Below are positions 20,821 to 31,886 of a stretch of DNA of 33,837 bases, one piece after another (position 1 is the first letter of the stretch; each line of letters opens with the position of its first letter). Both the position numbers and the translations under genes were made by a program. The stretch comes from Planctomycetales bacterium (GTDB lineage Bacteria > Planctomycetota > Planctomycetia > Isosphaerales > Isosphaeraceae): positions 1-33,837 of the forward strand of contig DAIDHX010000305.1 in assembly GCA_027451885.1 (NCBI GenBank), given 5' to 3'. The notes below the pieces were generated by a model. That model had not been told where the DNA came from. It searched no databases and was given only the letters and a program-made list of their open reading frames with translations.

Positions 20821-21825
20821 ATGAACTCGAGACGGCGAGAGCATGGAGCGGGAGTGGGTTGGATCCTGGGAATGGCCGTCATGGCTGGGATGTCGGCCTG
20901 GGTGCCTGCCAGGGCGTATGCAGGGATGCCCGCTTTGGAGACTACGGCCAATGGGATCGATTGTGTCCAGCCTGTGGTGTATCGCACCGAGGTACGCACA
21001 GTGCAGGTGCCGGTCACGCGCATGGTGAGTGAGGTTGTGAACGAGTCACGGAGCGTCACTTGCTGGACGCCCGTGCAAGAGACGGTGCAGCGCCAGGTGA
21101 CGCGCTACGTGTGCGAGCGGAAGCTGGTCACCGAGACGCGGTACCGTCCAATCTGCGAGCAGCAGATGGTGGAAAAGACGGTTTATGAACCGCGCTGTTC
21201 CTGGGAATGGGTGGAAAAGACGGTCACCCGGATGGTTCCCCAGTGCGTCACGGAACCGGTGCCTGTGACGAAAATGGTGGAGGTGATCGAGCAGAAGGTC
21301 GCGTACGTGGCTCGCAAGGTCCCCGTGACCCAGATGGTGCCGGTGACGACCTGCGTGCATTCCTGCGGGCATCGCTGCAAGGCGGGTTGCGGCGTCTGTG
21401 GCGGGGTGACGACCTGCGTGACCTATCGGCCTGTGACGACGTGTGCGATTGAGCATGTTCCGGTCACCCGCCCGGTGCAGAGCTTCCGGCCGCAGACGGA
21501 CATGGTCACGATGACGCATACGAAGTTCGTACCGGTGCAGGAGAAGGTGCAGGTTTGCCAGCGTAAGGTGGAGCAGATTCCGCACAAGGTAACGGTCTGC
21601 GAAACCCGAACTCGGCTTGAGCCTTACCAGGTGCAGGTTTGCCGCCGGGTTTCGACGCCGGTGACCGAGACGGTGCCTGTCACGGTGACGAAGATGGTGC
21701 CGCACACGCAAACCCAGGTTGTACCGACCGTGCGTTGCCGAGCGGTGACCGAGATGGTGACGCAGCAAGTGTCAGTCTGCGTCCCCTGCGAGCCCGCTGC
21801 GCAGGCAACGGGCCAGGGGAGTTAA
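20821..21825 (+). CDS. Exported cysteine-rich YTV-like repeat protein, possible cell-wall component
   Basis: A 334-residue protein with a signal peptide (hydrophobic segment to about residue 30, ARA-Y-AG site). The mature part is a low-complexity beta-type protein made of short repeats such as VPVTRMV, VPVTKMV, VPVTQMV and VPVTRPV, mixed with valine/threonine-rich segments, with about 19 cysteines in 300 residues, including a dense cluster (CVHSCGHRCKAGCGVCGG). It resembles cysteine-rich YTV-domain proteins known from planctomycete cell walls, where disulphide cross-linking is thought to matter. GGAG lies 10 nt before the ATG. Codon use and composition look native. Attribution to the YTV family is by pattern, not by an alignment. 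Confidence 0.82.
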   Translation: MNSRRREHGAGVGWILGMAVMAGMSAWVPARAYAGMPALETTANGIDCVQPVVYRTEVRTVQVPVTRMVSEVVNESRSVTCWTPVQETVQRQVTRYVCERKLVTETRYRPICEQQMVEKTVYEPRCSWEWVEKTVTRMVPQCVTEPVPVTKMVEVIEQKVAYVARKVPVTQMVPVTTCVHSCGHRCKAGCGVCGGVTTCVTYRPVTTCAIEHVPVTRPVQSFRPQTDMVTMTHTKFVPVQEKVQVCQRKVEQIPHKVTVCETRTRLEPYQVQVCRRVSTPVTETVPVTVTKMVPHTQTQVVPTVRCRAVTEMVTQQVSVCVPCEPAAQATGQGS

Positions 21826-22059: not shown

Positions 22060-22530
22060 TCAGCTCTTCTTGACCGGCGGTGAGACCGGAGGAGGCGGAG
22101 GAACTTCCTTCGCGGGAGACTGGGGTGCGGCCTTGGCCGGAGGAGCCGGGGCCGGCGCAGCCTTGGCCGGAGCCTGAGGCGCGGGAGCAACCTTGGCCGG
22201 AGCCTGAGGCGCAGGAGCAACCTTGGCCGGTGCGTGCGGCGCAGGCATCGCCTTCGCAGGAGCTTGCGGCGCGGGAGCAACCTTGGCCGGCGCGTGCGGC
22301 GCAGGCATCGACTTGGCAGGGGCCTGAGGCGCAGGGGCAACCTTCGACGGAGCATGCGGCGCAGGCATCGTCTTCGCAGGAGCGTGCGGCGCAGGCATCG
22401 TCTTGGCAGGTGCCTGGGCCGCGGGCATCGCCTTGGCAGGGCTCTGCGGCGTCTGGGCCGACGCGCTGCCAGCCAGGCCAAGCCCGGCCAGCGCGACTAC
22501 CGCGCTTCCGAACACGCGAATCTTCGTCAT
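22060..22530 (-). CDS. Secreted Ala/Pro/Lys-rich tandem-repeat protein
   Basis: A 156-residue protein. The first 24 residues form a signal peptide (MTKIRVFGSAVV, then a Leu/Ala/Gly core and SASA-Q). The mature part is almost wholly ten-residue repeats of two kinds, VAPAPQAPAK and (T/S/A)MPAPHAPAK, ending in KEVPPPPPVSPPVKK. It has no cysteine or catalytic motif, and the repeats resemble PAKA-type linkers of wall-spanning proteins or histone-H1-like Ala/Pro/Lys tails, though a signal peptide argues for an envelope role. The start at 22530 has GGAGA about 11 nt upstream; the frame is open to 22887 but upstream residues look non-coding. A strong terminator follows. Confidence 0.8.
   Translation of the reverse strand: MTKIRVFGSAVVALAGLGLAGSASAQTPQSPAKAMPAAQAPAKTMPAPHAPAKTMPAPHAPSKVAPAPQAPAKSMPAPHAPAKVAPAPQAPAKAMPAPHAPAKVAPAPQAPAKVAPAPQAPAKAAPAPAPPAKAAPQSPAKEVPPPPPVSPPVKKS
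22141..22440 (-). repeat. Ten 30-bp tandem repeats of two alternating types
   Basis: Ten consecutive 30-bp units in exact register start at 22141. Type A units (coding VAPAPQAPAK) and type B units (coding MPAPHAPAK) are arranged, on the plus strand, A', A, A, B, A, B, A, B, B, B', where primes mark divergent end units. The B-A alternation suggests a 60-bp duplication on top of the 30-bp repeat. Units are contiguous without spacers, so this is a coding minisatellite and not a CRISPR array. Confidence 0.9.
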
Positions 22531-22970
22531 CGATGCATTCTCCAGGGAGTCTTCGTGTTGCGAACTCGGGTTCTTTCCTCGCCCAATCCGCTCTCGGGCG
22601 GGATCACAGAACGCTCCAGTATACATGATCGGGGTCTGCGTGTTCTGGGAATTCTGCGAATACCGAGTTGTTTGCACTGACTTTTCCTCAAGTCTTAAGG
22701 CTTTTGGCACACGCTCCCACGGATAAAAAAACCGATCATGACGATCGTAGCGATTCCGCAGACCTTGAGCCCCACGTTCCTGTACCGGCAAAACGGCTCG
22801 ACACTCATGCCCCGGATTCGCGGTGATTGGCTGGGCGTGATCTTGCACCCAGGTTCTCGACCCACGGGCCAGACGCATGGAACACAAACGCGCTCCACAC
22901 GGAAGTCTGCCCGATCCTCGGGGAATTCATTATGATGCGGCGGTGTCATCTGATGGAGGGAGCCGCGGTT
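22531..22970. other. 440-bp divergent intergenic region
   Basis: Between the repeat-protein gene (minus) and the TPR gene (plus). On the minus strand a TGTATACT element (22625-22618) could be a -10 box about 80 nt before the repeat-protein start; no good -35 is seen. On the plus strand in-frame ATGs at 22932, 22935 and 22953 precede the chosen TPR start at 22971, so part of this region may be translated. Otherwise I see no gene or RNA. Confidence 0.4.
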
Positions 22971-25900
22971 ATGCCCCATTGGCGACGGTTATCTCCCGGC
23001 TCACGCCCTGCGCAGGCGTGGTCGGCCATTCTCGTCTTCCTGGCCGCGAGCGGGTTCTCGCTGTTGCCAGGGATCGCCGCCAGCGCTCGTACCCAGGTCG
23101 CGAGGGACGATGCCGACGCCCTCCGATTCGCGCGCGGGCTGCTGGATCAGCGCAAGTACGCACTTGCCGCGGAGGAATACACGCGGATCCTCAAACGATC
23201 CCCCGGCGGCACGGTCCAGGCGGATGCACGCTACGGCCTGGCGAACGCGCTTCTTTACCAGGGCAAGTATCGGGAGTCGAAGCCGGAGTTCGAAGCGTTT
23301 CTCACGGACGCTCCGCGAGACCCGAGGGTGCGAACCGCGGAGTACCGGTTGGGCGAGATCTGTTACTTGCTCGGCGACTACCGCGAGGCCCGAAGCCGGC
23401 TCGAAGGGTTTACCGAGGCTGCCGCGGGCCATGCTGGGCTTGAGATGGCGTGGACCTACCTGGGAGATTCGTGTTTCAACCTCGACGACTTACCGGCTGC
23501 GAAGCGGGCCTACGCGCGGGCGATCGCGGATTATCCCAGGGGGAGGCTGGCGGATCGAGCGCGTTACGGCATGGGGCGCACCCTGGCTGGGTTGGGTGAA
23601 ATCGACCAGGCTCTCGAGCTGTTTCGTGGATTGATCGAGGCGGGCAAGGCGGGCTGGGTGGATCGATCGTGGCTTCAGGTCGCGCGGATCGAGCGTGGGA
23701 GTGGGCGGGACCAGAGGGCGATCGACGCCGTGACGGCCCTCGAACGGTCAGCGCCCGATAGTCCGCTGCTTGCCGAGGCGCGGTTTGAGCAGGCGTGCGC
23801 GCTGGGTCGACTGGGGCGAGGTGACGAAGCGTCAGCGCTATTCAAGCGGCTTGCTGGTCCTGGCGTGCCGGCGGCTCTGGCCGCTCAATCCGCGCTCGAG
23901 TGGGCGGCGTTGGAGCTCACCCGCGGCCGCGCGGCTGAGGCCCGGGCGATTCTCGATCCCGCGCTTGAGCGCTTTGGCGAAACGCCGCTCGCCCCCGCGC
24001 TCCGCTATCGCCTGGCGGAAGCGCTCGTGCTCGACAAGAAGCCAGGGGAGGCCGAGGCGCAATTCCGGGCCGTGGCGCGGCTCTCGCCGCCGGACGCCTG
24101 GAGCGACGACGCCGCCTGGCGCGCGGCCCGGCTTGCACTCGAGCGCGGCTCCGGCACGGACGCGCGCAAGATGCTCGAGGATTTCGATCGCCGTTTCCCT
24201 TCCAGCCCGCTCGCGCCTGAGGCGGCGCTGGCACTCGCACGCGCCTTCGTGCTCGAGAAGCAACCGGCCGAGGCCGCGAAACGGCTCGAAGCGCTGCTCG
24301 CAACCGCGCGTGCCCAAACGCCTGAGCGCAGCCCAGCGCCCTGGGTCGCCGCGGCGCTCTACGAGCTGGCGGTGATCGACCGCGGCCTCGGAAAGAAGCA
24401 AGCGGCCGATGCGTTGCTCGAGGAGCTGACGCGGGGAGCCGACAAGGCTGTCGCCGCCGACGCCCATTATCTGCTGGGCGAATCGGCCGTCGACAACAGG
24501 CAATTCGCTGAGGCCGTTCCGCATTTGCAGGCTTACCTGAGCGCCCGGCCTGATGGAGAGGCGGCGGAATTCGCACTCGCCCGGCTCGCGCTCGCCCAGG
24601 CCCAGACCGGGCACGACGCGGAGGCCGCTCGCTCGCTCGCGGAGCTGGGCAAGCGCTTTCCCAGAACCGGCGCCCATGCTTCGGCGTCGCTGGCGCTCGC
24701 CGAACGCGCGCTCGCCGCGAATCATCTCGCCGAGGCCGAGTCGGCGTTCCGCAAGGTGATCGCGGCCGGCGAACAGGCCGGGGTCGATCTGGCCAGGCCC
24801 GCCCAGCCGCAAGCGAAACCAGACCCGCATGCGATCGATCCGGAGGTGGTGCGCAGGGCATGGACTGGCCTGGGCCGTGCGCTTTACCGGCTCAAGAAGC
24901 CGGCCGAGGCCGCTCAGGCGCTTGCCCGCGCGATCCCAGGCGGCAACGCGGGGAGCGAGAATCGGCTCGCGCTCGCCGCCGCGCTTGAGTCGGCCGGCCA
25001 GAACGAGCAGGCGCTCGCCGCCTATGACGCGATTCTCCAGGCGGATCCCCGCGCCCTCGCCGCAGCGCTCGCGAAGGCCCGGCTGCTCGCGCGCGTGGAA
25101 CGCCCCAGCGATGCCGCCAAGGCGTACGAATCAATCGCGGCACGAATCGCGGAAAAGGCTGAGCTCGCCAAACTCAAGCTCGAGCCGGCCGCCTTGCTGG
25201 GCGAATGGGCCTTCGCGCTTCTCGATGCGCAGGACGTGAACGGGGCAGACAGGGTCTTCCAACGAATCCTTGCCGAGTACCCCCAATCCCCGACGGCGGT
25301 CGACGCTCGCTTCAATTTGGCGGAGTCCGCCAACGAGCGCGGCAACCATGCTGAGGTCATACGGCTGCTTGCACCCCTGGCCGAAGGAGAATCCCTGGCT
25401 CCTGCCCAGGGAGACGCCGCGGACGCGGTCAATCGCCGCAACGAGGCGATCCTCTTCCGGCTCGGTCGAGCCCAGGCGGAGCTCAGGGCCTGGCCCTCCG
25501 CCGCGCGGGCGTTCGATCGCCTGCTCGGCGCCTATCCCAGAACGCCGCTGGCTCGGGAGGCGAAGTTCTTTCGCGCCCTCGCTCATGAGGAACAGGGGGA
25601 GTTCGAACCCGCCGCCACACTTTACGCAACCGTTGCCAATGACCCGCCCGGCAAGGGTGATCCACCGCGGCTAGACACCCTGGCGCGAACCCGACGGCTG
25701 GCGTGTCTCGTCGGCATGAAACGCTGGGCGGATGTACTCACCGAGGCCGACTCGCTCAAACCAGCCCTCGGATCCGATCAACGGGCTTGCGCTGAGCTCG
25801 ACTTCGCACGCGGTCAGGCGCTCAAGGGCCAGGGCAGGCTCGCGGATGCGCGCTCCGCGTTCGCCAGCGTTGCCTCGCAGAAGACCGGCGACCTCCCCGC

Positions 25901-26192
25901 GCAGGCCCAGCTCATGGTCGGCGAGACCTACTTTCACGAGGGAAAATTCCACGAGGCCCTGCGCGAATTCCTCAAGGTTGACATTCTCTACAAATCCCCG
26001 CGCTGGCAAGCCGCAGCGCTGCTCGAGGCGGGCAAAGTTCAGGAGCGCATCGACCAGCCGGCCGAGGCTGCCGAAACATATGAAAGGCTCGCTGCGCGAT
26101 TCCCGGACGATCCGGTCGTCAAGGTCGCCCTGGCCCGCAAGGACGCGCTCGCACGCAAGGGGAGCGGCAACGGCAAAAAACGCGGATCATGA
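22971..26192 (+). CDS. Large exported TPR-repeat protein
   Basis: A 1073-residue protein with a signal peptide (WSAILVFLAASGFSLLPG, about residues 19-36) followed by tetratricopeptide repeats along nearly its whole length. Typical TPR signatures include AAEEYTRILKRSP, AKRAYARAIADYP, and AAETYERLAARFPDDP at the C-terminus; many repeats have the YbgF/YfiO-like 'YP-x-(S/T)-P-A' spacing (for example AEYPQSPTAVDARF). TPR proteins of this size act as periplasmic scaffolds. A charged Lys/Gly tail ends the protein. The start at 22971 is preceded by GGAGGG at 10 nt; ATG at 22932 with GGGGA at 8 nt is a fair alternative and would lengthen the n-region by 13 residues. An ExbB/TolQ-like gene follows after 64 bp, suggesting one complex. 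Confidence 0.87.
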   Translation: MPHWRRLSPGSRPAQAWSAILVFLAASGFSLLPGIAASARTQVARDDADALRFARGLLDQRKYALAAEEYTRILKRSPGGTVQADARYGLANALLYQGKYRESKPEFEAFLTDAPRDPRVRTAEYRLGEICYLLGDYREARSRLEGFTEAAAGHAGLEMAWTYLGDSCFNLDDLPAAKRAYARAIADYPRGRLADRARYGMGRTLAGLGEIDQALELFRGLIEAGKAGWVDRSWLQVARIERGSGRDQRAIDAVTALERSAPDSPLLAEARFEQACALGRLGRGDEASALFKRLAGPGVPAALAAQSALEWAALELTRGRAAEARAILDPALERFGETPLAPALRYRLAEALVLDKKPGEAEAQFRAVARLSPPDAWSDDAAWRAARLALERGSGTDARKMLEDFDRRFPSSPLAPEAALALARAFVLEKQPAEAAKRLEALLATARAQTPERSPAPWVAAALYELAVIDRGLGKKQAADALLEELTRGADKAVAADAHYLLGESAVDNRQFAEAVPHLQAYLSARPDGEAAEFALARLALAQAQTGHDAEAARSLAELGKRFPRTGAHASASLALAERALAANHLAEAESAFRKVIAAGEQAGVDLARPAQPQAKPDPHAIDPEVVRRAWTGLGRALYRLKKPAEAAQALARAIPGGNAGSENRLALAAALESAGQNEQALAAYDAILQADPRALAAALAKARLLARVERPSDAAKAYESIAARIAEKAELAKLKLEPAALLGEWAFALLDAQDVNGADRVFQRILAEYPQSPTAVDARFNLAESANERGNHAEVIRLLAPLAEGESLAPAQGDAADAVNRRNEAILFRLGRAQAELRAWPSAARAFDRLLGAYPRTPLAREAKFFRALAHEEQGEFEPAATLYATVANDPPGKGDPPRLDTLARTRRLACLVGMKRWADVLTEADSLKPALGSDQRACAELDFARGQALKGQGRLADARSAFASVASQKTGDLPAQAQLMVGETYFHEGKFHEALREFLKVDILYKSPRWQAAALLEAGKVQERIDQPAEAAETYERLAARFPDDPVVKVALARKDALARKGSGNGKKRGS

Positions 26193-26256
26193 CCGGTCAA
26201 GATCGGCGGTGGACTGATTTCTCAGGCATCCGTCAGAGTAAAACAAGAGGCGTGAG

Positions 26257-27303
26257 ATGGATTTCCGCGCTCGCAGTGCTGCTATCATCGTGCTTGCGAT
26301 TGGCCTCGCGCCGCTTGCCCTGGCACGGGGGGATGGCGTGGGTGAAAATGGTGCGCAGGTTGATCCCGGGGCCGATCGCGCCCGGGCCGCCATGCCCAGC
26401 CTCGCGGAGGACGCCCGCGCGCTGGCACGTCTGGGCTCGGTCGGGCTCAACCGGCTTGGCCACTGGTACCGCACCACGCCGCCGGCGGATCGCATGGTCT
26501 GGGGGGGGCTGGTCGGCGCGGGAGTGCTCGCTCTCGGCGTCTTTTTTGAGCGTTTGTTACGAATCCGGCCGCGGCGGGTGATCCCCCTCGATTTCAGCAC
26601 GCGGTTTCTGGACCTGATCCATGAAGGGCGGCTCGATTGCGGCCAGGCGCTTGACCATTGCGAGCGCCATCCCAGCCCGGCCGCGCGGGTCGCGCTCGCG
26701 GCGGTGAACCGATGGGGTCGGCCGTCGGTCGATCTCGAACGCGCGGTCCTGCTGGCGAAAAACGTGGAAAACGACCGCCTGAAGCGGAACGTTGGGACGT
26801 TGCGTCGCGTGGCCGCGCTCGCCCCCTTGATTGGGTTGCTGGGCACATTACTGGCCTTTAGCCGGGCGCTTGAAGCTGCGCCCGCCGCGCTCGCGGCCAG
26901 GGGAACGGAAACGCTCGCAGCCCAGCTTGCCGAGCATGCCCAGTGGGGACGCGCGCTGGCCCAGGCGCTTTCGCCGCTCACGGTCGGCGTTGTCATCGCC
27001 GCGCTCGCGCTCGTGGCCTACGACGCCCTCATGATCCGGGTAGAACGGCTCGCCGGAACGCTCGAGCGCCTGGGCGCGGAGACCATCGACGCGATCGCAT
27101 CGTCCGCGCCCCTGGTCACACCCATCCTGCGATTCGGCCAGGTTCACGATCAGCCAACACAAACGGTCACGCGCAGCGACTCGCCGCACGACGCGAATCC
27201 CGAGCCCGCGCACGATTCACTCCGCGGGCGCAAGCCTCGCCTGCGCAAGCGCCGCGGGATTGATCTGGCCTCGAAGCCCAGGCGCAACCATACTGACACC
27301 TGA
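26257..27303 (+). CDS. MotA/TolQ/ExbB-family proton channel subunit
   Basis: A 348-residue membrane protein with a signal-like N-terminal hydrophobic segment (about 8-24), then the three transmembrane helices of the family: 79-98, 184-203 (LAPLIGLLGTLLAF) and 238-258 (ALSPLTVGVVIAALALVAYD). The family uses proton motive force to drive TonB/TolA- or motor-like partners. The cytoplasmic loop between helices 1 and 2 is about 85 residues, as expected. The C-terminus (about 295-348) is a basic extension, not usual in ExbB. AGAGG lies 7 nt before the ATG. Its usual partner, an ExbD/TolR protein, is missing from the neighbourhood; the next gene encodes a membrane-anchored toroid protein. The transported or coupled process is unknown. 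Confidence 0.87.
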   Translation: MDFRARSAAIIVLAIGLAPLALARGDGVGENGAQVDPGADRARAAMPSLAEDARALARLGSVGLNRLGHWYRTTPPADRMVWGGLVGAGVLALGVFFERLLRIRPRRVIPLDFSTRFLDLIHEGRLDCGQALDHCERHPSPAARVALAAVNRWGRPSVDLERAVLLAKNVENDRLKRNVGTLRRVAALAPLIGLLGTLLAFSRALEAAPAALAARGTETLAAQLAEHAQWGRALAQALSPLTVGVVIAALALVAYDALMIRVERLAGTLERLGAETIDAIASSAPLVTPILRFGQVHDQPTQTVTRSDSPHDANPEPAHDSLRGRKPRLRKRRGIDLASKPRRNHTDT

Positions 27304-27359
27304 TTTGCCAGCATCTTGCGCATGCTGATCCGTCTGACCGGCCGCGTGGAGCTTCCCCC

Positions 27360-29438
27360 ATGACGGGTCTCGACCTCGAGACCTTTCTGAGCCTCCCCCG
27401 GATCGACCCCACCGCGTGGGTTGTGCTCGGGCTCTCCTGCGCTGGCATCGCCGCGCTTGTCTGGTGGGGCTGGGGCTCGAAACGCGCGATCCGCAAGTGC
27501 CTGGCCCTTTCGCTCGTCGCGCACGCCGGTCTGGCGGCCTACGGCGCAACCTCACCCGTCCTGCGCTGGTCGCTCGGCCTGCCGGTGCGTGACCGCAATC
27601 GCGACCATCTGCGGCAGGTACGCGTGCAACCGGTCGCCGCGGGCTGGCAGGGCGCTCCGCTACAGGCCGATCCGAAAACGAAGAACTTGATCTCCGGAAC
27701 CGCCTCGCGCGTGGAACGCGTCGAGCCCGATCTGGCACTGGCGGACGAGCCCCTCCGCACGCACGAACAACCAACTCAACAGGCTCTGGGAGCAGATCTT
27801 CTGCTCAAGGATTTGGCCGCACCCGCGCCGGACGCGCCCCGCATCGCGCCCCGGAATGAACGGGCAAGCGATCCAGCCGCTGCACCTGAACCACGGAAAC
27901 TGCTGGCAGTGAAGGAGCTCCTGACCGACCGCGCGCCGTCTCCCCTGGATCCCGACCCCACCGAGCGCGAGGCGACCGTGCTCGATGAGCCGAGCACCTC
28001 GAACATTACCGTGAGCGAAAACGGCATTCGCGATCGCTCGATGCTGCCTGGCGATCGCCGGCTGCGTGTCGATCACAAGCGGACGGCGCGCCCGCGCCCC
28101 GGCGCGGCGATGCTCGAGCCCAGCGTGAAGCAGGGCTCAGCCGGAGCAAAGGCTGGCGCCGGCCTGGGAACGGGAGCGGCGGCGGAACCGGTCGAGATCG
28201 CGCGGGTCACGCCACGGGCGAACGATGTGCTCGATCGCCTGGCGGCGGATCGGCTGGAGCGAAGGCCCGCGCCGATGGTGCCGCGCATGTATCAACCGCG
28301 AGTCGAGGCCGATCGATCCGCGCAGGCGGTCCGGCTCGGCGCCAGCGCGGCGAGCGAGCGTGCGGTCGAAGCGGCCCTGGTCTGGCTGGCGCGGCATCAG
28401 GATGGCGACGGCCGCTGGGATGCAGGCACCGCCCGCTTTAGCGACGGCTCAACCGCGGACGGTGAGGACGACTACACCAGCCATTGCCCCGTCGGCGATA
28501 TATGCTCCGGCGAGTGTATCTACTGGGAGGCCGACACCGGTATCACGGGCCTTGCACTCCTGACCTACCTGGGAGCAGGTTACACACATCGCGACGGGCG
28601 ATACGCCGACGCCGTGCGCAGAGGTCTCGAATTCCTGCTTCGTTCCCAGGCGGCGGACGGCGACCTGCGCGGCACCAGCCGCAACGTGGGGATGTACTGC
28701 CACGCCATGGCCACGCTCGCACTCTGCGAGGCTTACGCACTCTCAGGCGATGGCCGATTACGCGTGGCCGCCGAGCGCGCCCTTGGCTTTCTGGTCCGTG
28801 CCCGGGCACGCGATGGCCTCGCCTGGCGTTACGCCCCCGCCGCACCCATCGGCGATACAAGCATTCTGGGCTGGGTTGTGCTCTGCCTCAAGGCCGCCAA
28901 CGAGATCGGTATCCAAATCCCAAACGAAGCCTCAGTGAAGTCAGGCGCCTTGCGCTGGCTCGACCAGGTACGCGGAGGCAAGGCCGGCGGCCTGGGGAGT
29001 TATCAGCCAGGCATGGCGCCGACGCCCACCATGACGGCCGAAGCCTGGGTCTGCCGCCAGTTCCTGGGACAGGTGGATTCCACACAGGCCGCCACCGAGG
29101 CCGCCGCTTACCTCCTTGATCACAAGTCCGACAAGGGTCCCACCAATTTCTACTACTGGTACTACGCCACCCTGGCGCTTTACCAGCACGGCGGCGAGCC
29201 CTGGGAGCGCTGGAACCTCCGCGGACGCGATGCCATCATCGCCCTGCAGCAAACCGCGGGACATCGTGCAGGAAGCTGGGATCCCGATCAGAGCGAGTAT
29301 GGCGACAAGGGAGGGCGAATCTACTGCACTGCGCTCGCCACGCTCACGCTCGAAGTGTATTACCGCTATCAGCGGCTTGAAAAGGACGTGCAGCCAATCG
29401 AACGCGACCCACCGCTCGAGCCCGCGGCCAATCGATAG
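27360..29438 (+). CDS. Membrane-anchored squalene-cyclase-like toroid protein
   Basis: A 692-residue protein. Two N-terminal membrane helices (about 19-38 and 45-62) are joined by a short basic loop. A long disordered, Ala/Pro/Asp-rich periplasmic linker follows (about 70-345). The C-terminal third (about 355-680) is an alpha/alpha toroid of the prenyltransferase/squalene-oxidase repeat type, with HQDGDGRWDAG, SQAADGDLRG, MYCHAMATLALCEAYALSGD, FYYWYYATLALYQHGG and IYCTALATLTLEVYYRY. The Asp-rich catalytic DxDD motif of true squalene-hopene cyclases is not seen, so enzymatic cyclisation is unlikely; a binding or structural role is more probable. The anchor places the toroid in the periplasm, beside the ExbB-like gene 56 bp upstream. 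Similar anchored toroids are, to my knowledge, common in planctomycetes but not understood. Confidence 0.85.
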   Translation: MTGLDLETFLSLPRIDPTAWVVLGLSCAGIAALVWWGWGSKRAIRKCLALSLVAHAGLAAYGATSPVLRWSLGLPVRDRNRDHLRQVRVQPVAAGWQGAPLQADPKTKNLISGTASRVERVEPDLALADEPLRTHEQPTQQALGADLLLKDLAAPAPDAPRIAPRNERASDPAAAPEPRKLLAVKELLTDRAPSPLDPDPTEREATVLDEPSTSNITVSENGIRDRSMLPGDRRLRVDHKRTARPRPGAAMLEPSVKQGSAGAKAGAGLGTGAAAEPVEIARVTPRANDVLDRLAADRLERRPAPMVPRMYQPRVEADRSAQAVRLGASAASERAVEAALVWLARHQDGDGRWDAGTARFSDGSTADGEDDYTSHCPVGDICSGECIYWEADTGITGLALLTYLGAGYTHRDGRYADAVRRGLEFLLRSQAADGDLRGTSRNVGMYCHAMATLALCEAYALSGDGRLRVAAERALGFLVRARARDGLAWRYAPAAPIGDTSILGWVVLCLKAANEIGIQIPNEASVKSGALRWLDQVRGGKAGGLGSYQPGMAPTPTMTAEAWVCRQFLGQVDSTQAATEAAAYLLDHKSDKGPTNFYYWYYATLALYQHGGEPWERWNLRGRDAIIALQQTAGHRAGSWDPDQSEYGDKGGRIYCTALATLTLEVYYRYQRLEKDVQPIERDPPLEPAANR

Positions 29439-30287: not shown

Positions 30288-31886
30288 ATGGAAGGTTCGT
30301 ACACGGCGGGCGCGCAGCGAGTGCTTGTGGAGGCGCGGCGGGCAGCGGCTGCGCGGAAGGGGATGGAGGTCGAGCCGCTCGATTTGCTGCTCGCGCTTGT
30401 GCTCGATGCCGAGAACCGGGCGGCCGAGCTACTGCGTGAGATTGGCTTCGACACGGACGAGCTTGCCGGTTGGATCCAGGACCAGTCGAGCCTTCTCGAG
30501 GAGCAAGCGAGCCTGAGCGCGGCGAGCGAGGAACTGCTCCAGGAGCTTTCGCACTCGGTGGAGCTGCGCTCGGTTTTGCTCGAGGCCGCGGTCACAGCGC
30601 GGGGGTTCAACCGGGCCACGGAGATTGGCACCGAGCATCTACTGGCGGGACTGATAACCGCCTCGGAGGAGGCGGCCGCCGCGTTCGAGCAGAAGGGCGA
30701 GCGCTTGCTCGACCAGCTTCGCGACCGGCTCGAATCGCCGGCGGAGGAAGCGCTCGCCGCGCTCCCTCTTGCCGAGGGCGTTGCGCCGCTCGAGCTCGGC
30801 GAGCCCGGCCTGGAAACCGACCTCGGGCGCCTGCTCGACGCCTCGGTCAACCGCGCACGCGAGGGCCTGCGCGTCGTCGAGGATTACGCTCGCTTCGTAC
30901 TCGACGACCCCGCTGTCACCCGCAGGCTCAAAACCATTCGCCACAAGCTCGCCGAAGCCGAACGCGGCCTCGGACGCTTTATCGCCATCGAAACCCGCGA
31001 CACCCCGGGCGACGTCGGCGCCCACATCATGACCCCGTCCGAACAGGTCCGCGAAAACCCCCGCGCCGTGCTCGTGGCCAATTTCAAGCGGATCCAGGAA
31101 TCGCTCCGCTCCCTCGAAGAATACTGCAAGCTGGTCGACGTCTGGCTCGCCGGCCGGTTCGAGGTGGTGCGCTATGACGTCTACACCGTCGAGAAGCTCA
31201 TGCTCACCGCGCTTGTCTCCAGGCGCACGCTTGGCGACGTGCGGCTCATGATCCTCGCCGGCGACCTGCGCACTCCCGGCGACCTGACCTGGGTCGTGGG
31301 CGAAGCGCTCAAGGCCGGGGCCGACGCGATCCAGTTTCGCGACAAGTCCCACGCCGACCGCCAGCGCCTGAGCCTGGCACGCGACCTGCGCATCCTCACC
31401 GCGCAGGCCAGGGCAATCTTGATCGTCAACGATCGACCCGACCTGGCGCTCCTGGCCCGCGCAGACGGCGTTCATGTCGGCCAGGAAGACGTCTCCCCGC
31501 GAGACGCGCGCCGCGTCCTGGGCGCAAGCGCGGTCGTGGGCGTCTCGACCCACAATGCCAACCAGCTCGAATCCGCCCTGCTCGCAGGCGCAAGTTACCT
31601 GGGTGTCGGCCCGGTCTTCCCCACTCCCACCAAGGACTTCGCCGAGACCGAGCTCGCCGGGCTCGCGTTTGTCGAGCACGCCGCCCTCACCACCACACGC
31701 CCCTGGTTCGCCATTGGCGGCATTACTGAAGACAACCTCAAACGCGTGCTGGACGCCGGCGCGGCCCGGATCGCCGTGTCCGCCGCAGTGATTCGCGCGA
31801 GCCGCCCCGGGCGCGCGGTCGAACGGCTCAAGAAGCTCCTCGAAGGTGGAACGCCCGAAGCACCCGACAGCGACGATGAGGAGTGA
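30288..31886 (+). CDS. thiE: Thiamine-phosphate synthase fused to ThiD2-like and Clp-N-like domains
   Basis: A 532-residue, three-part cytoplasmic protein. Residues about 1-145 resemble the N-terminal repeat domain of Clp ATPases (AGAQRVLVEARRAAAARKG, then LHSV-like helices and TEIGTEHLLAGLI). Residues about 178-312 (LLDASVNRAREGLRVVEDYARF, RLKTIRHKL) match the ThiD2 type, an alternative hydroxymethylpyrimidine-phosphate kinase often fused to ThiE. Residues about 317-522 are thiamine-phosphate synthase, with QFRDK at 349-353, IVNDRPDLA at 379-387, DGVHVGQEDV at 393-402, GVSTHN at 418-423 and GVGPVFPTPTK at 439-449. ThiE couples the pyrimidine and thiazole phosphates to thiamine phosphate. ThiD2–ThiE fusion is known; the added Clp-N-like part is unusual. 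No ThiG or ThiC gene is near. The ribosome site is weak (GGGGGA about 12 nt upstream). Confidence 0.88.
   Translation: MEGSYTAGAQRVLVEARRAAAARKGMEVEPLDLLLALVLDAENRAAELLREIGFDTDELAGWIQDQSSLLEEQASLSAASEELLQELSHSVELRSVLLEAAVTARGFNRATEIGTEHLLAGLITASEEAAAAFEQKGERLLDQLRDRLESPAEEALAALPLAEGVAPLELGEPGLETDLGRLLDASVNRAREGLRVVEDYARFVLDDPAVTRRLKTIRHKLAEAERGLGRFIAIETRDTPGDVGAHIMTPSEQVRENPRAVLVANFKRIQESLRSLEEYCKLVDVWLAGRFEVVRYDVYTVEKLMLTALVSRRTLGDVRLMILAGDLRTPGDLTWVVGEALKAGADAIQFRDKSHADRQRLSLARDLRILTAQARAILIVNDRPDLALLARADGVHVGQEDVSPRDARRVLGASAVVGVSTHNANQLESALLAGASYLGVGPVFPTPTKDFAETELAGLAFVEHAALTTTRPWFAIGGITEDNLKRVLDAGAARIAVSAAVIRASRPGRAVERLKKLLEGGTPEAPDSDDEE

Follow-up and report, generated by a model that had tools for sequence, protein, structure and literature searches.

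A TonB/TolA-like protein with an α/α toroid end and a divergent ExbB in a candidate envelope machine of Isosphaeraceae

The closest described counterparts of the gene group analysed here are the Ton (ExbB–ExbD–TonB) and Tol (TolQ–TolR–TolA–CpoB) systems of Escherichia coli and the von Willebrand A (vWA) transducers of the Planctomycetes–Verrucomicrobia–Chlamydiae (PVC) group. In the E. coli systems, Ser16 and His20 of TonB or Ser18 and His22 of TolA contact Ser34 and Trp38 of ExbB or Ser28 and Trp32 of TolQ (PMC12215075). The PVC loci contain a tetratricopeptide repeat (TPR) gene, a tolQ-like gene, two tolR-like genes and a gene for a vWA protein with an SHLS motif; a further class, TPH-vWA, lacks tolR, and there the vWA protein provides the pore aspartate and the threonine ring is kept (PMC12204202). 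Here we report a computational analysis of three consecutive genes in a 33,837-nt stretch of DNA (the window) from a Planctomycetales bacterium of the family Isosphaeraceae, encoding a TPR protein, an ExbB-like protein and a membrane-anchored protein that ends in an α/α toroid (the toroid protein). We find that the toroid protein carries the SxxxH docking motif of TonB and TolA, and that the adjacent ExbB has lost residues that serve proton flow and TonB docking in its E. coli homologues. The account we favour, as probable with real room for error, is that a Ton/Tol-like envelope machine found across Planctomycetota takes this form in Isosphaeraceae and is driven there in trans by a stand-alone ExbB–ExbD motor.

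The window is the whole of contig C305 of its genome (G000), a 6.18-Mb draft that is 98% complete. The three genes lie on the plus strand with gaps of 64 bp between the TPR and ExbB-like genes and 56 bp between the ExbB-like and toroid genes, as an earlier reading made from the sequence alone (the sequence-only reading) had described and the open reading frames (ORFs) bear out.

22971..26192, plus strand: TPR gene, encoding a 1,073-residue predicted exported TPR protein, first in the conserved group (ORF and translation)
26257..27303, plus strand: ExbB-like gene (the local ExbB), encoding a 348-residue protein of TolQ/ExbB fold without motor and docking residues
27360..29438, plus strand: toroid gene, encoding a 692-residue TonB/TolA-like transducer with an α/α toroid at its end (ORF, AlphaFold2 (AF2) model, PDB comparison and conservation)

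No ExbD gene lies between or beside these genes. We took family f1 of our genome set as Isosphaeraceae, with relatives that include Singulisphaera, Paludisphaera and Tautonia, and the TPR–ExbB–toroid order is found again in most of the Isosphaeraceae regions examined; the arrangement is therefore not due to chance. The TPR protein has many Pfam TPR matches, including TPR_16 at 2e-52, and also matches YbgF/CpoB-type TPR entries; its N-terminal hydrophobic segment predicts export, and its orthologues head the operon across Planctomycetota.

The locus resembles the E. coli systems in its motor family, its SxxxH helix, its periplasm-spanning linker and its periplasmic TPR protein, but it lacks a TonB_C or TolA end domain and has an extra helix ahead of the docking helix. 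It also resembles in layout the PVC vWA transducers, Planctomycetes included, in which a TPR gene, a tolQ-like and a tolR-like gene are likewise followed by an SHLS-type helix, a linker and a non-TonB end domain. Those transducers, however, end in a vWA domain and have paired tolR-like genes, in contrast to the α/α toroid and the single ExbD of the ancestral-type locus here, and an ExbB paralogue without motor residues, present here, is not seen in the portion of their report available; that text also mentions neither a toroid nor a cyclase domain (PMC12204202). With the TPH-vWA proteins the locus shares a TolQ homologue adjoining the transducer and the absence of ExbD/TolR, but they lack SHLS, supply the pore aspartate and keep the threonine ring, whereas here SxxxH is kept and the threonine ring is lost (PMC12204202). 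The genome of the window also has a locus resembling the first vWA class, ExbB–ExbD–ExbD–vWA with SxxxH (contig C15, L077, 4373-8192), which adjoins an H+-pyrophosphatase gene. A literature search on a planctomycete gene group of ExbB and squalene-type proteins, covering open-access papers only, found nothing.

The toroid protein and its docking motif

The AF2 model agrees with the sequence-only reading that the third protein is anchored by two membrane helices and extends through a long linker to a periplasmic toroid.

27408..27467, plus strand: membrane helix 1, residues 17–36 (AF2 secondary structure)
27480..27551, plus strand: membrane helix 2, residues 41–64, bearing SxxxH (AF2)
27510..27524, plus strand: Ser51-x3-His55, a docking motif of the TonB/TolA SHLS type (conservation)
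27573..28253, plus strand: disordered linker, residues ~72–298 (predicted local distance difference test score, pLDDT, below 50 nearly throughout; AF2)
28284..29366, plus strand: α/α toroid domain, residues 309–669, of squalene-hopene-cyclase fold (AF2 and PDB comparison)

The basic loop that follows helix 1, SKRAIRK, suggests an N-out orientation for this helix, and the linker would lie in and span the periplasm. The ring is modelled with pLDDT mostly above 90. Its best PDB match is squalene-hopene cyclase (2sqc_A; Z 26.2, 3.1 Å over 289 residues, 19% identity), and sugar epimerases are also among the closest folds. By sequence, all squalene-cyclase matches in Pfam and other profile searches are below threshold. 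The protein has no Pfam match to a TonB_C domain, in whose place the toroid fold stands, or to a VWA domain.

Among 22 toroid orthologues only Leu4, Leu10, Trp20, Ser51 and His55 are invariant in the membrane region; across 25 broader sequences His55 is still invariant and Ser51 is present in at least 90%; and in a broader sample with complete N-termini the serine occurs in 92 and the histidine in all of 97 sequences, a count from which five Phycisphaerae proteins of different architecture were excluded. The motif is retained wherever the toroid genes lie, including species with a split operon, and its spacing is that of Ser16/His20 in TonB and Ser18/His22 in TolA. A profile of the N-terminus retrieved no TonB or TolA match from the PDB, and the weak TolA matches of the full-length profile (E 0.002–0.003) run across the compositionally biased linker, so we do not rely on them. 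Judged by its motif, the toroid protein belongs with the TonB/TolA-type transducers, placed as TonB is and not as ExbD. The proposal that it replaces ExbD or TonB thus survives in its second half: the protein is TonB-like in its SxxxH motif, but the same two helices occur in relatives whose operon includes ExbD, and it is therefore not a substitute for ExbD.

Several further features of toroid proteins were observed. Residues ~375-385 (window ~28482-28514) are an Isosphaeraceae-specific insertion, HCPxGxxCxGEC, with three cysteines; it is missing in the outgroup L086 and modelled with low pLDDT. A second, paralogous toroid family of ~490-590 residues (L082, L207-L219) has SxxxH in its membrane helix in all 14 members sampled; one of these (L082, G000 contig C52, 7715-9373) lies between genes for an M16 peptidase and PEPCK, with no ExbB close by. 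At five Phycisphaerae loci (L148, L152, L153, L160 and L169), TPR–ExbB–ExbD is followed by an ORF of 1,400–1,680 residues with a toroid. Those of these large proteins whose N-terminus was read have one membrane helix and a PD40-type β-propeller, and SxxxH was not found.

The local ExbB and the location of ExbD

The ExbB/TolQ-like identity given by the sequence-only reading was confirmed. The local ExbB matches PF01618 (MotA/TolQ/ExbB) at 3.4e-10, with 40.2 bits against a cut-off of 22.9, and the top structural match of its AF2 model (pLDDT 79) is TolQ (9ddn_C; Z 15.7 over 202 residues), with TolQ/ExbB matches at Z 13–15.7 compared with about 10 for MotA/PomA. We mapped residues onto E. coli ExbB numbering with HMMER and compared 29 local ExbBs of Isosphaeraceae with 74 others: 52 from toroid operons, 12 stand-alone, 6 from split operons and 4 other. 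Four positions in the window protein stand out.

26521..26523, plus strand: codon 89 (Gly), at the position of ExbB Ser34, which contacts TonB Ser16/His20 (HMMER map; PMC12215075)
26845..26847, plus strand: codon 197 (Thr), at the position of ExbB Thr148 (residue table)
26977..26979, plus strand: codon 241 (Leu), at the position of ExbB Thr181, the pore threonine being gone (residue table)
27004..27006, plus strand: codon 250 (Leu), at the position of ExbB Pro190, the proline being gone (residue table)

The pore threonine T181 is present in none of the 29 local ExbBs and in 74/74 of the others. The T148 position, threonine in all 74 others, reads T in 13, S in 14, A in 1 and G in 1 of the local proteins. 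TolQ T145 and T178, the equivalents of T148 and T181, have been reported to be important for function (PMC12965293). At the S34 position serine is found in 1/29, compared with 52/52 operon and 12/12 stand-alone ExbBs. P190 is absent from all 29 and present in every operon (52/52), split (6/6) and other (4/4) sequence. Beyond these losses the protein is conserved and has near-invariant residues of its own, Pro240 just before the T181 position (28/29) and Asp256 (29/29), and is therefore probably selected for another role. The 29 sequences form one clade (100/100) on a long stem. The loss of T181, P190 and S34 is best read as marking a non-motor paralogue. The local copy probably does not work as a channel; the suggestion of an energised machine built on it is not supported, as both its pore threonine and its docking serine are missing.

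ExbD lies within the locus in most relatives outside the family. Scanning named genomes, we obtained 80 loci, and most complete ones outside Isosphaeraceae read TPR–ExbB–ExbD–toroid (Pirellulales, Thermoguttaceae, Phycisphaerae and other Planctomycetota). This order, together with SxxxH, identifies the system as a Ton/Tol-like force transducer whose end domain is new. In one family (f2) the operon is in two distant parts, TPR–ExbB and ExbD–toroid, in 7/7 genomes (L173-L177, L180, L181; L200-L206), and the ExbB there retains its threonines, T181 included, in 6/6 cases though ExbD sits elsewhere. Mere separation from ExbD therefore does not erode the threonines, and a locus lacking ExbD is ruled out as the reason for their loss.

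That ExbD is missing is true of the window locus and untrue of the genome, which has seven ExbDs in four ExbB–ExbD loci, all away from it. Of the 37 family genomes searched, most encode an orthologue of the local ExbB and also a second, stand-alone ExbB ~35% identical to it, which is followed by ExbD in 12/12 cases examined. The sequence-only reading had looked to an ExbD elsewhere that travels with this ExbB, or to an unconserved gene order, as what would count against it. The order is kept in most Isosphaeraceae, and what co-occurs is, in modified form, an ExbB–ExbD pair elsewhere in every Isosphaeraceae genome checked. An orphan ExbD dedicated to the local ExbB was found in none of 11 Isosphaeraceae genomes, in which each above-cut-off ExbD adjoins one of four ExbBs in a 1+2+2+2 pattern with none spare. 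In the ExbD tree the single stand-alone ExbD (12 rows, 99) groups with toroid-locus ExbDs and away from the remaining paralogues, and simple loss of ExbD in Isosphaeraceae is rejected on this placement. In the ExbB tree the local and stand-alone ExbBs are sisters inside the toroid-locus ExbBs. The simplest reading is that in Isosphaeraceae the ExbB gene was duplicated and an ExbB–ExbD motor pair left the operon, so that ExbD was apparently relocated. In at least two genomes (G008 and G016) the TPR gene is followed directly by the toroid gene: the local ExbB is gone, and SxxxH and the stand-alone pair are both present.

Candidate motors of the toroid protein

In the reading that we favour, the stand-alone ExbB–ExbD pair would be the proton-driven motor; the toroid protein would dock on the stand-alone ExbB through Ser51 and His55; its linker would transmit force across the periplasm to a target that the toroid holds; the TPR protein would be a periplasmic helper comparable to CpoB of Tol; and the local ExbB would be a non-motor paralogue, retained in a scaffolding or regulatory role that some species can do without. 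Since G008 and G016 keep the motif and the pair without a local ExbB, the docking partner cannot be the local ExbB alone. Searches for a TonB_C protein and a TonB-dependent receptor were positive in G040 and in the controls E. coli, Caulobacter and Bacteroides, and gave no match in six Isosphaeraceae genomes. This would leave the stand-alone motor in those genomes with no client of the canonical kind; the strongest candidate for a client is the toroid protein.

Several points weigh against this account. Several other SxxxH proteins in Isosphaeraceae genomes could be clients of the stand-alone motor; the stand-alone ExbB itself lacks P190 (0/12); the residue losses of the local ExbB are one event on one stem and not 29 independent ones; the S34 mapping comes from a weak ungapped alignment of the first transmembrane segment; the placement of ExbD uses few columns and an 80% branch; the sister relationship of the two ExbBs has moderate support (87/61 in one tree, 94 in the other); and the structural models are single-chain AF2 models only. 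A more specific proposal is that the local ExbB is a pseudo-stator, a MotA/TolQ/ExbB-family protein without channel and docking function, retained across the family as a subunit, structural or regulatory, of a transducer that ends in a toroid and whose actual motor was duplicated and relocated. We advance this tentatively, as nearly balanced with the weight slightly against it.

An unlikely alternative is that in Isosphaeraceae the local ExbB makes up, together with the toroid protein, a passive anchored scaffold off the proton gradient, with the stand-alone pair serving others. This would fit an ExbB without T181, P190 and S34 that stays in an operon with the TPR and toroid genes in most genera, and the other SxxxH proteins available as clients; a passive tether, however, would not need the SxxxH motif that is conserved even without the local ExbB, and the grouping of the stand-alone ExbD with toroid-locus ExbDs also speaks against it. 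We consider it quite improbable that the local ExbB joins the stand-alone pair, whether in mixed rings or as an additional subunit, in the manner of TtpC, an ExbB-family protein, in the Vibrio TonB2 system. Additional operon-encoded proteins are essential in that system (PMC6957404), and the local ExbB retains the fold and has the stand-alone ExbB as its sister, but G008 and G016 lack it and keep the rest, and the sequences give no sign of mixed rings. An enzymatic toroid, terpene cyclase or glycan-active, with an incidental ExbB neighbourhood, is very improbable: although cyclases and epimerases are its nearest folds, inspection of the window protein's translation found no DxDD cyclase motif in the toroid, the DxDD strings that some relatives contain are mostly DPDD, in line with a conserved GSWDPD segment and not with a cyclase site, and the conserved membrane motif and phylum-wide ExbB–ExbD linkage would be left unexplained. 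The proposal of the sequence-only reading, an active local channel in which the toroid helices replace ExbD, can draw on the adjacency of the two genes, with ExbD absent, across most of the family and on Asp16 (Glu in one lineage), which places an acidic residue before helix 1 in most Isosphaeraceae toroid proteins, but is extremely improbable given that T181 is gone in 29/29, that both helices also occur in relatives having ExbD and helix 2 is of TonB type, that the positive-inside rule puts Asp16 on the side opposite ExbD Asp25, and that the TolR-less vWA class retains both the Asp and the Thr ring (PMC12204202); an ExbD-less proton machine is not supported.

What is new here is the toroid end domain and an ExbB that has lost motor residues; all partnerships between the proteins we infer from sequence. 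On the favoured reading, the α/α toroid would be a second non-TonB end domain among the motor-driven periplasmic transducers described in 2025, and the system a candidate Ton/Tol equivalent for Planctomycetota, of which at least six Isosphaeraceae genomes have no TonB_C or TonB-dependent receptor match. The two ExbB copies also offer a natural experiment, with motor residues lost in one and mostly kept in its sister, that opens the roles of T181, P190 and S34 to evolutionary and mutational tests.

Three other ORFs of the window were also noted. Downstream of the toroid gene, a single ORF (30288-31886) joins a Clp_N-like segment to ThiD2 and thiamine phosphate synthase (ThiE) domains. Upstream of the TPR gene, 22060-22887 on the minus strand encodes a repeat protein rich in Ala, Pro and Lys (APAKTMPAPHAPAK...) that appears to have a signal peptide, and 20821-21825 on the plus strand encodes a 334-residue protein without a Pfam match that is packed with VPVT/V-rich repeats.

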